DNA of 40,450 nucleotides from Komagataeibacter sp. FXV3 (GTDB lineage Bacteria > Pseudomonadota > Alphaproteobacteria > Acetobacterales > Acetobacteraceae). Positions within the stretch are counted from its first letter, which is position 1. Each line of letters opens with the position of its first letter. This document shows, one piece after another, positions 31,707-33,520 of this stretch. A model generated the notes under the pieces. The model did not search any database. It saw only the letters and a list, made by a program, of their open reading frames with translations, and was not told the DNA's origin. The stretch is from the NCBI RefSeq assembly GCF_015155755.1, contig NZ_VWPI01000143.1:1-40450 (forward strand), written 5' to 3'. Position numbers and translations under genes: made by a program.

Positions 31707-32125
31707 TAATTCTGCTTTTGAAGGCTGTTCTTCAATAATGCGTGGGGCAGGTCATGGACAGTGTCTCAAGACCACATCACGCAGGACCATGAACCCGGCA
31801 CAGGGACGTCATGCGGTCGGATGATCGGGTTCAGGGCAACCTGGCGGCAGGTCCCCCTGCCGGATGCAGCCTGGCTGCTCTGCACGGCATTGGCGCGTGC
31901 CGTGCCGTGGATTACCTCCGGGCAGGAGAAAACGTACGGCAACCCCGCCTTGATGGCAGCATGTCATGTTCAGCGTGGGTACGGGATGTGATGGGGGCTG
32001 GATGTGGTTTTGTTCTGCTGCCGTGTCGGTTGGGGACCGAACGATCTTTCGCATGGCGGCAGGATGCCGCGCGTGAAAACCGTTTTTCAGGTTTCAGAAG
32101 GCGCCACATGACAATGTGGGATTTG
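31707..32125. other. Non-coding region between the MITE-like element and tRNA-Arg
   Basis: I see no supported gene. Short plus-strand frames (for example 31811-32236) run into the tRNA and show no family features. A hairpin CCACAT-GACA-ATGTGG at 32104-32119, just after the 3' end of tRNA-Arg on the minus strand, may end that transcript. Confidence 0.5.
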
Positions 32126-32427
32126 TGGTGTCCGCGGCGGGATTCGAACCCACGGCCCCAGGATTCGTACCACTTCGGCTTTCACCGCCGCCATAGGGGT
32201 ATGGCGTTCGTGGTCTGGACTGTCCCTTCACCATAAACCGCATGCGGTTGACAGGTGCTGCCCATCCAGTCTCTACACCTTGCCGGAAAACCGGCCTTGG
32301 CTCGGGATTGGCACGGCATTTGCCAGAGCGTTCCCCGAATTTGAGCAGATCCGCCACGTGGTTTCCCGTCGTGACGCCCAATTGCAAACCAGGAATCCTG
32401 TGCTCTATCCGGCTGAGCTACGCGGAC
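32126..32427 (-). tRNA. tRNA-Arg(CCU) gene interrupted by a group I intron
   Basis: The two exons (32427-32391, 37 nt; and 32165-32126, 40 nt) join to give a complete 77-nt tRNA. It has acceptor stem GTCCGCG/CGCGGAC, D stem GCTC/GAGC, anticodon stem CAGGA/TCCTG, anticodon loop TTCCTAA, T stem GTGGG/CCCGC and encoded CCA. Neither half folds into a tRNA alone. The split falls straight after the CCT anticodon, the site known for the group I intron in Agrobacterium tRNA-Arg(CCU). The gene lies 73 bp downstream of holA on the same strand. Confidence 0.93.
32166..32390 (-). ncRNA. Self-splicing group I intron (225 nt) in tRNA-Arg(CCU)
   Basis: The 5' exon ends in T and the intron ends in G, the two nucleotides required at group I splice sites. 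The conserved core elements can be read in order on the minus strand. P-like GGGAAACC is at 32367-32360 and Q-like AATCCCGAGCC at 32309-32299. R-like GTAGAGACTGG is at 32276-32266 and S-like GGGACAGTCC at 32226-32217, pairing with R to form P7. A perfect AACCGCATGCGGTT hairpin sits between R and S (P8), and CGCCATA/TATGGCG follows S (P9). There is no homing-endonuclease ORF. The pattern fits subgroup IC3. Confidence 0.9.
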
Positions 32428-32500
32428 ACACTTGGGTTTTCTAAACGAGGCCCCGACGCGCGGCAAGGTGTTTCACGAAAGCGGAGGGAATATTTCGCCT

Positions 32501-33520
32501 TCAATGGCGCCTGCGCATCTGCTGCGCCTGTGCGCACAGCCGCGCAACATGACGCAGGCAGAGCACGACATCGGGGCTGCCGGTCTGCTTGCAGGCCAGT
32601 TCCAGCGCCTGTGTTTCCTCCGCCGCGTGCAGCAGGGCGCTGGCTGACCATATCATCATGGCCTGCCCGAAGCTGTCGGTGCGTTTGAAAAAGACCGGGG
32701 GCCGTAGTTGTCGCATGGCGTCCGCCCGGCTTGCCCCCCCATCCACCGCAAGGCGCGCCCGGCGCAGCCGGTGGATATGCGACAGCAGCACGCGCGTCAG
32801 GGCGATGGGGCTGCTGCCATCGGTGGTCAGCGCGCGTTCGGCTGCGGCATCTGCCCCCCTGCGGTCGCCCGCCATGGCGGCAAAGGCGGCATCTTCCAGT
32901 GATACGCCCGCCGCGTCCCCAACGCAGGCGCGGACATCCTCCAGCCCCAGCCTGCCACCCTTACCCGCGAACAGGGCCAGTTTTTCCACTTCGCTGCGTG
33001 TCGCAGCGCGGTCGGGGCCTGCGCGTTCCACCATCCACCCCAGCGCATCAGGGTCGATGCCGACATCCTGCGCTGACAGCATCTGCCGGATGACGGCTTC
33101 CAGTGTGCGTCCTTCTTCTGGGTAACAGCCGATCACCCCGCACTGCCTGTCCTTTTCCGCAAAGGTTCGCAGTTTCGAGCGTGAGGCAAGCCCCGGTGCT
33201 TCCATGATGACCAGCGTATCGGATGGCTGGGCCAGACTGTGCTGCAATGCCGCCAGCACGCTGTCGCCCACGTCACGCAGCCAGACCACCCGCCGTCCCC
33301 CGGTCAGGGCGAGGGCGGTTGTTTCTTCCTCCAGCCGGTCATGGTCCTCACGGCCCAGGATGGCGACTCGGAATGGATCATGCAGGTCGGGACAGACTGC
33401 TTTCGCCGCGGTCGTGGCCCGTTCACGGATCAGGCCCGCATCTTCCCCATGCAGGATGATGGCCCGCAGCGCACCGGGTGCCTGCAGGGTGGCATTGGTG
33501 CTGCGGGCATCAATCTTCAC
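32501..33520 (-). CDS. holA: DNA polymerase III subunit delta
   Basis: Delta opens the beta sliding clamp as part of the clamp loader. The 339-residue protein has the family pattern: an N-terminal domain with AIILHGEDAGLIRERA, then VVWLRDVGD and TLVIMEAPGLASRSKLRTF. The central part has GWMVERAGPDRAATRSEVEK and LALFAG, and the C-terminal alpha-helical domain has LLSHIHRLRRARLAV and RPPVFFKR. Only 5 bp separate it from lptE, so it ends the leuS-lptE-holA unit. Confidence 0.92.
   Translation of the reverse strand: MKIDARSTNATLQAPGALRAIILHGEDAGLIRERATTAAKAVCPDLHDPFRVAILGREDHDRLEEETTALALTGGRRVVWLRDVGDSVLAALQHSLAQPSDTLVIMEAPGLASRSKLRTFAEKDRQCGVIGCYPEEGRTLEAVIRQMLSAQDVGIDPDALGWMVERAGPDRAATRSEVEKLALFAGKGGRLGLEDVRACVGDAAGVSLEDAAFAAMAGDRRGADAAAERALTTDGSSPIALTRVLLSHIHRLRRARLAVDGGASRADAMRQLRPPVFFKRTDSFGQAMMIWSASALLHAAEETQALELACKQTGSPDVVLCLRHVARLCAQAQQMRRRH

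Follow-up and report, generated by a model that had tools for sequence, protein, structure and literature searches.

Gene structure and detection

The question raised by positions 32427 to 32126 (minus strand) of the window, by which is meant the whole 40,450-nucleotide stretch of DNA analysed, is whether a tRNA gene is hidden there by an insert that is removed from its transcript and, if so, what kind of element the insert is and how it is inherited. The best explanation, to which a probability of about 0.94 was assigned, is that a small group I self-splicing intron with an Azoarcus-like layout interrupts the only tRNA-Arg(CCU) gene found, and that it is vertically inherited with the gene where the latter is linked to holA. 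The insertion lies between U36 and A37. The 5' exon (32391 to 32427, minus strand) comprises the 5' strand of the acceptor stem, the D arm, the 5' strand of the anticodon stem and the anticodon CCU, ending at U36, as delimited by ARAGORN with introns allowed and by the fold of the joined exons as a tRNA. The intron itself (32166 to 32390, minus strand; 225 nt) has the terminal G as its last base, and its limits rest on the match to the Rfam group I intron model RF00028, on ARAGORN, on alignments of homologues and on a covariance model built from relatives (R1). The 3' exon (32126 to 32165, minus strand), delimited by ARAGORN, supplies the rest of the anticodon loop and stem, the variable loop, the T arm, the 3' strand of the acceptor stem, the discriminator A and an encoded CCA.

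With the insert removed, the exons give 77 nt that form a complete clover leaf with a CCU anticodon and a CCA end, all of the tRNA stems being intact, and plain ARAGORN types the joined sequence as tRNA-Arg(CCT). Given the unspliced sequence, and with introns allowed, the same program reports tRNA-Arg(CCT) with a 225-nt intron. An earlier note on this DNA had proposed that a tRNA missed by standard scans is complete once 225 nt are removed; both parts of that proposal hold, as do its coordinates. Plain ARAGORN applied to the window reports three other tRNAs, the split gene not being among them, and a search of the whole genome with the Rfam tRNA model returned 47 matches, none of them at 32126-32427. 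A holA-like gene (32501 to 33520, minus strand), putatively for the DNA polymerase III delta subunit to judge from its protein and its position after leuS, lies directly upstream on the same strand as the split tRNA and serves as a synteny marker. A scan of 31900-32700 returned no promoters, a chance-level result, and one terminator-like site on the other strand, which is the number expected by chance. The authors of tRNAscan-SE 2.0 state, in a passage of PMC8450103, that their tool was not designed for such genes. Since plain ARAGORN, tRNAscan-SE 2.0 by its design and the Rfam cut-off all fail the gene, the genome seems to be without a tRNA-Arg(CCU); for annotation, the split gene is real and easily missed by programs.

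Copy number and need for the tRNA

Among the 47 places matched by the Rfam tRNA model in the host genome, 46 were typed by ARAGORN, including arginine tRNAs with anticodons ACG, CCG and TCT, and none as Arg(CCT). The one match that ARAGORN did not call (G000:C190:64622-64687; 36.1 bits) is possibly a tRNA remnant. A second, intact tRNA-Arg(CCU), which the earlier note had named, in conjunction with transcripts seen only unspliced, as counting against its proposal, was thus absent from the typed tRNAs of the draft genome (208 contigs; Rfam tRNA model and ARAGORN). Neither tRNA-Ile(GAT) nor tRNA-Ala(TGC), which usually sit in rRNA operons, was among those 46, so the draft is incomplete for tRNAs and a second tRNA-Arg(CCU) could be missing from it too. 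Model R1 has a single match in the genome. The gene need not be essential, since the codon AGG is little used (8 of the 155 arginine codons counted across four genes of the window) and tRNA-Arg(UCU) might read it.

Homologues and fold of the intron

The 302-nt locus was used as a query against 200 genomes of the bacterial family, the host's own included. At least 193 of these gave some match, many to exons or to other introns only, and 74 hold a full-length intron-bearing gene (the match at locus L146 falling in two pieces). A 5' exon motif ending in CCU, sought by script, and an intron ending in G are present in all 74, with intron lengths from 213 to 318 nt. The intron therefore belongs to a large family, and the description of it as a possible 'orphan' in the earlier note was wrong. 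A displaced piece of an Arg(CCU) intron, comprising its 3' part and the 3' exon and 86% identical to the window, was seen at L102:3001-3118 in a genome (G169) that also holds the whole gene elsewhere. It looks like a trace of integration or rearrangement; no integrase was recognized beside it among ORFs of at least 150 aa read by eye.

The search with RF00028 gave a match over the full model at 32396-32207 with an E-value of 1.1e-6, but its score of 34.3 bits falls below the gathering score of 50. Model R1 scores the window intron at 186.6 bits, a value that holds by construction since the window sequence is in the training set of the model. The P3-P8 and P4-P6 domains and the P7 pseudoknot are present, with P, Q, R and S segments in that order; this order, along with the exon-terminal U and intron-terminal G, had been proposed beforehand and was upheld on the window sequence and on the homologue alignment.

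All of the helices lie on the minus strand. P1 (32377 to 32393) pairs the exon CCU with GGG of the internal guide (32379-32377), leaving a U-G wobble at the splice site; the three exon pairs, the U-G pair included, are kept in 74 of 74 homologues, and the four extension pairs in 53, 69, 54 and 38 of 74. P2 (32352 to 32376) is a hairpin whose seven outer pairs are kept in 71-74 of 74 with compensatory changes, and its GAAA loop occupies columns in which at least 70 of 74 rows are alike. The 5' strand of P3 (32343 to 32348) pairs with 32263-32258, all six pairs being kept in every homologue with two-sided changes at three of them. The P4-P5-P6 domain, with the P and Q segments (32278 to 32339), was placed by RF00028 and the alignments, its first P4 pair occurring in only 36 of 74. 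The 5' strand of P7, with the R segment (32268 to 32271), pairs with the 3' strand in the S segment (32218 to 32221), which was located by the alignment of 74 introns; since its four pairs are invariant, apart from an N in one row, P7 is a case of conservation on which covariation is silent. In the P8 hairpin (32229 to 32257) the four base pairs occur in 73-74 of 74 homologues and show compensatory changes, and the inner P8a pairs occur in 27-65. P9, P9a and P9b (32170 to 32213) are kept in 73-74, 59-73 and 66-74 of 74, respectively.

Many two-sided changes occur across the 74 introns in P2, P3, P6a, P8 and P9a, and the 74 full-length homologues together with their covariation exclude chance. 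An alignment of 33 rows that mixes tRNA hosts has 98.4% standard pairs, with two-sided changes at 21 of 40 pairs. None of 500 shuffles and no slid version of the structure reached as high, the comparison with slid versions being one that favours the drawn structure, since this was drawn from the window sequence. The claim that no homing endonuclease is encoded is supported, in that the four ORFs of at least 60 aa that cross the intron have no Pfam match up to an E-value of 1; 225 nt would in any case leave little room for such a gene. Introns of subgroup IC3 in tRNA genes are small, have a P2 with a GNRA loop and are inserted in the anticodon loop, and the window intron shows these traits in its 225 nt, its GAAA loop and its site.

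Splicing

On the strength of this fold, the intron is predicted to splice, and to do so without the help of protein. Following transcription the intron would fold such that the guide GGG pairs with the CCU at the end of the exon, the splice site itself being a U-G pair. A guanosine docked in P7 would then attack the 5' splice site, and the freed exon would in turn attack after the terminal G, joining the exons to yield a tRNA that reads AGG.

The alternative that fares best is that the intron is genuine but depends on a host protein for splicing in the cell, which is considered improbable, if not negligibly so. The fold is compact, the GAAA loop is conserved and core pairing is nearly full, and the related group I introns of Azoarcus and Anabaena splice without protein, all of which argues against such dependence. 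For it stand the varying extension pairs of P1, the modest Rfam score, and the use of host proteins by other group I introns, as described in a passage of the review PMC3984707.

Inheritance in acetic acid bacteria

Self-splicing apart, the preferred reading holds that the intron descends with its gene in the acetic acid bacteria in which it is linked to holA. The HolA protein of the window is 96% identical to those of Komagataeibacter europaeus and K. swingsii, and the tRNA and intron are identical over 302 nt in K. europaeus LMG 18890, which together place the DNA in Komagataeibacter and so bear out the earlier assignment to an acetic acid bacterium. A scan for holA gave 22 loci, 18 of them from acetic acid bacteria (13 Komagataeibacter, three Novacetimonas, Gluconacetobacter entanii and Acetobacter farinalis). 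The split tRNA lies 3' of holA in all 18 of these named bacteria, and plain ARAGORN found no tRNA in any of the 18 stretches; the fetched flanks of the four more distant holA loci hold no split tRNA gene. Distances between HolA proteins and between introns are strongly correlated across 39 holA-linked loci (Mantel r 0.934; none of 2000 permutations as high), the coefficient being somewhat raised because some species are probably represented twice among the 39 loci, once from each of two collections. These data support vertical descent, as had been proposed, for the group with holA linkage.

In favour of the rival view, that this genome acquired the intron recently by horizontal transfer, stands its patchy distribution in the wider family: full-length introns occur in 74 of 200 genomes, and all 15 of the exon-only loci that were fetched are intact tRNA-Arg(CCT) genes. 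Furthermore, the fetched flanks contain holA at 22 of the 74 intron loci (about 1.1 kb away in L132) and at none of the 15 intronless loci, so that a shared genomic place is shown for those 22 only, and the demonstration of vertical descent extends no further than the loci linked to holA. The introns of the window's bacterial family, taken from all tRNA genes, are also rejected as one clade (AU p 0.002). Nevertheless, the invariable position 3' of holA in 18 of 18 acetic acid bacteria and intron distances that follow those of HolA render a recent arrival in this genome very unlikely. Elsewhere in the family there must have been losses, moves or independent gains. The notion that the tRNA gene is dead and its intron decaying, to which the rarity of AGG and the presence of tRNA-Arg(UCU) lend a little credence, is likewise considered very unlikely, since mean identity among 17 Komagataeibacter loci is 98% in the exons and 92% in the intron against 68% in the spacer between holA and the tRNA, the changes in the intron are compensatory and every tRNA stem is intact.

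Host tRNAs and guides of related introns

In a draw of genomes from the class R1 matched 42 of 337, and in one from the phylum 34 of 349; the two draws overlap (the host's own genome is in both), and filters drop some weak matches. Host genes were typed by script and by eye (by eye for L227-L234, L092, L093, L187, L207, L217 and L226), with five weak matches lying outside the typed set (G370:C54, G522:C18, G206:C438, G768:C13 and G716:C1:888261). A tree of 92 rows, built with near-copies and cut-off loci left out and given 15 of the 74 Arg(CCU) introns of the family, carries the host labels Leu(UAA) in 38 rows, Arg(CCU) in 24, Lys(UUU) in eight, Thr(GGU) in seven, Lys(CUU) and Ile(CAU) in three each, Arg(UCU) and Thr(CGU) in two each and Leu(CAA) in one. 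Four rows have no assigned host (L081, L092, L187 and L207), and the leucine label of L225, which has a poor 5' half, is doubtful. By our own typing, then, the same intron family occurs in at least nine tRNA species across the Proteobacteria, which is possibly a new finding. Two further observations concern tRNAs of this set: L092 and L093 are intron-bearing tRNAs, probably of the leucine kind, each with an intact tRNA-Leu(CAA) some 110-150 nt away, and in the tRNA-Leu-like genes L207 and L187 the 5' exon may, as judged by eye, end in C rather than U, which if true would be an unusual splice-site pair.

Insertion follows U34 in Leu(UAA), Arg(UCU) and some Lys(UUU), position 35 in the other Lys genes, U36 in Arg(CCU), Thr and one Ile, and U33 in two Ile and in Leu(CAA), the sites having been assigned by script or by eye. 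Guides were read in 71 of 81 loci (skipped: L170, L173, L176, L197, L198, L200, L203, L214, L215 and L221; doubtful picks: L185, L210, L220, L222 and L229). Where a guide could be read it suits its host tRNA, being GGG in nine of nine Arg(CCU), GAGU or GAG in 38 of 39 Leu(UAA), GCC or GCCA in seven of seven Thr(GGU) and GAGU in both Lys(UUU) cut after U34, counts that are not independent proof since the finder looks for fit. Where a Lys gene is interrupted after position 35, the first-fit guide is GGG in five of six introns, with one doubtful pick, and the best-fit guide is GGAG.

The introns cluster by host tRNA, imperfectly: the tree requires 22 changes of host label when 'unresolved' is counted as a label, compared with 48.3 in shuffles, and 18 without that label. 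Single ancestry of the Arg(CCU) introns is neither rejected nor demonstrated (AU p 0.12). The tree and the AU tests, twelve long-branch or poor rows having been removed before the latter, draw on 184-185 columns, with bootstrap values unsettled, many branches open and long branches that meet. In the tree the window intron belongs to a starred clade whose 14 members are all Arg(CCU) introns, two of them from other families (L165 and L197). Its kinship is thus likelier with Arg(CCU) introns elsewhere than with those that its own family carries in Leu and Thr genes.

A broader account may be offered tentatively, as possible though somewhat short of probable, in which one tiny group I intron lineage has spread by reverse splicing through many bacterial tRNA anticodon loops, at least nine host species being sampled, with a guide that was re-targeted or tolerant of G-U pairs, and with a tRNA-Leu(UAA) copy now travelling beside a resistance gene in Enterobacteriaceae. 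Re-targeted guides would be GGG for CCU in tRNA-Arg, GAGU for ACUU in tRNA-Leu and some tRNA-Lys, and GCC or GCCA for UGGU in tRNA-Thr, while tolerance of G-U would let one GGAG suit both the CUUU and the CUCU of the two tRNA-Lys.

Related introns on plasmids and in phage

Among 72,556 plasmid records, 1,270 contain a match to the window query, with identities of 60-80%. Records from E. coli and Klebsiella (L079, L080, L257 and L258) hold a tRNA-Leu(UAA) with a related group I intron, which in the best records among the matches listed shares 86.5% identity over 300 nt with L084 from the window's own family. Matches to this copy occur in 635 of the 5,426 complete genomes of E. coli, in 624 with at least 80% cover, at 589 places on plasmids and 81 on chromosomes. 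No feature is annotated beneath it in ten records among the matches listed, and the unannotated copy is possibly new. In four of four records the gene aac(3)-IId is no more than about 1 kb away from it, and three of these also have an AAA ATPase gene nearby. Intron-aware ARAGORN called a stop-reading tRNA with anticodon TTA in two clinical plasmid records; this was rejected, the gene being tRNA-Leu(UAA) with its intron between U34 and A35. At related loci the program reported Phe, Ser, Ile and other identities, which were likewise attributed to splice sites that it had misplaced, the genes being tRNA-Leu(UAA) by eye and by script.

Two loci are recorded here as separate observations. In Gordonia phage Daredevil (L082, 41862-42010) a related intron lies in a tRNA-Lys(ttt), according to ARAGORN with introns allowed, about 0.7 kb from an annotated integrase gene and with no annotated feature beneath the match. 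On pUSDA76 of Bradyrhizobium elkanii (L081:5001-5221) an intron core is followed by a tRNA-Leu-like 3' half, no convincing 5' half being present, and this is probably a remnant. It sits just upstream of a gene for a TrlF family ATPase (a single case), and the word TrlF was not found in the literature searched for it.

Comparison with known systems

A split tRNA-Arg in acetic acid bacteria has already been noted: footnote c to Table 1 of PMC4596401 (2015) marks five genomes in which a group I-like sequence divides a tRNA-Arg, namely those of Ko. medellinensis NBRC 3288, Asaia bogorensis, Acetobacter pasteurianus, Gluconobacter oxydans and Gluconacetobacter diazotrophicus, Granulibacter not being so marked. 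The amino acid and bacterial family are those of the window, and one of the five genomes is a Komagataeibacter; given the shared family, tRNA and kind of intron, the genes are probably the same, and the finding in the window is thus already known. The statement is confined to the footnote, with section 3.1 and the passages concerned giving no anticodon, position, fold or evolution. Elsewhere, group I introns in tRNA genes of alpha- and betaproteobacteria are treated in passages of PMC4033280, where Reinhold-Hurek and Shub 1992 is cited, those in tRNA-Ile2 of Acidovorax and Burkholderia in PMC8450103, and a group I intron in tRNA-Arg(CCU) is mentioned in PMC5733544. The passages of open-licence literature that the searches returned contain no mention of introns of this sort in the tRNA-Thr or tRNA-Lys genes of Proteobacteria. 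Movement of introns by reverse splicing is described in the 2014 review PMC3984707, in the passage concerned, as being without direct experimental evidence.

Taken singly, the feature in the window is an ordinary further instance of a split gene known in the genus. The valuable part is the wider family. Its related ribozymes, which occupy numerous tRNA hosts and carry guides suited to each, would allow the movement of introns through reverse splicing to be tested in nature.

An intron in Agrobacterium tRNA-Arg(CCU) was reportedly described by Reinhold-Hurek and Shub in 1992. It has the anticodon and the bacterial class in common with the window intron, but comes from a different order of the Alphaproteobacteria. 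The Agrobacterium intron is inserted after the anticodon, is small and lacks an endonuclease. That of Azoarcus tRNA-Ile(CAU), of subgroup IC3, is also small and without an endonuclease, and has a P2 with a GNRA loop; by these features the window intron shares with it small size, lack of endonuclease, location in the anticodon loop, the P2 loop and the order of the core, but in a different tRNA. The tRNA-Leu(UAA) intron of cyanobacteria and plastids sits between U34 and A35. It is of the same kind, and its site is that of the tRNA-Leu(UAA) relatives identified here, whereas the window intron differs from it in lying after U36 of tRNA-Arg.
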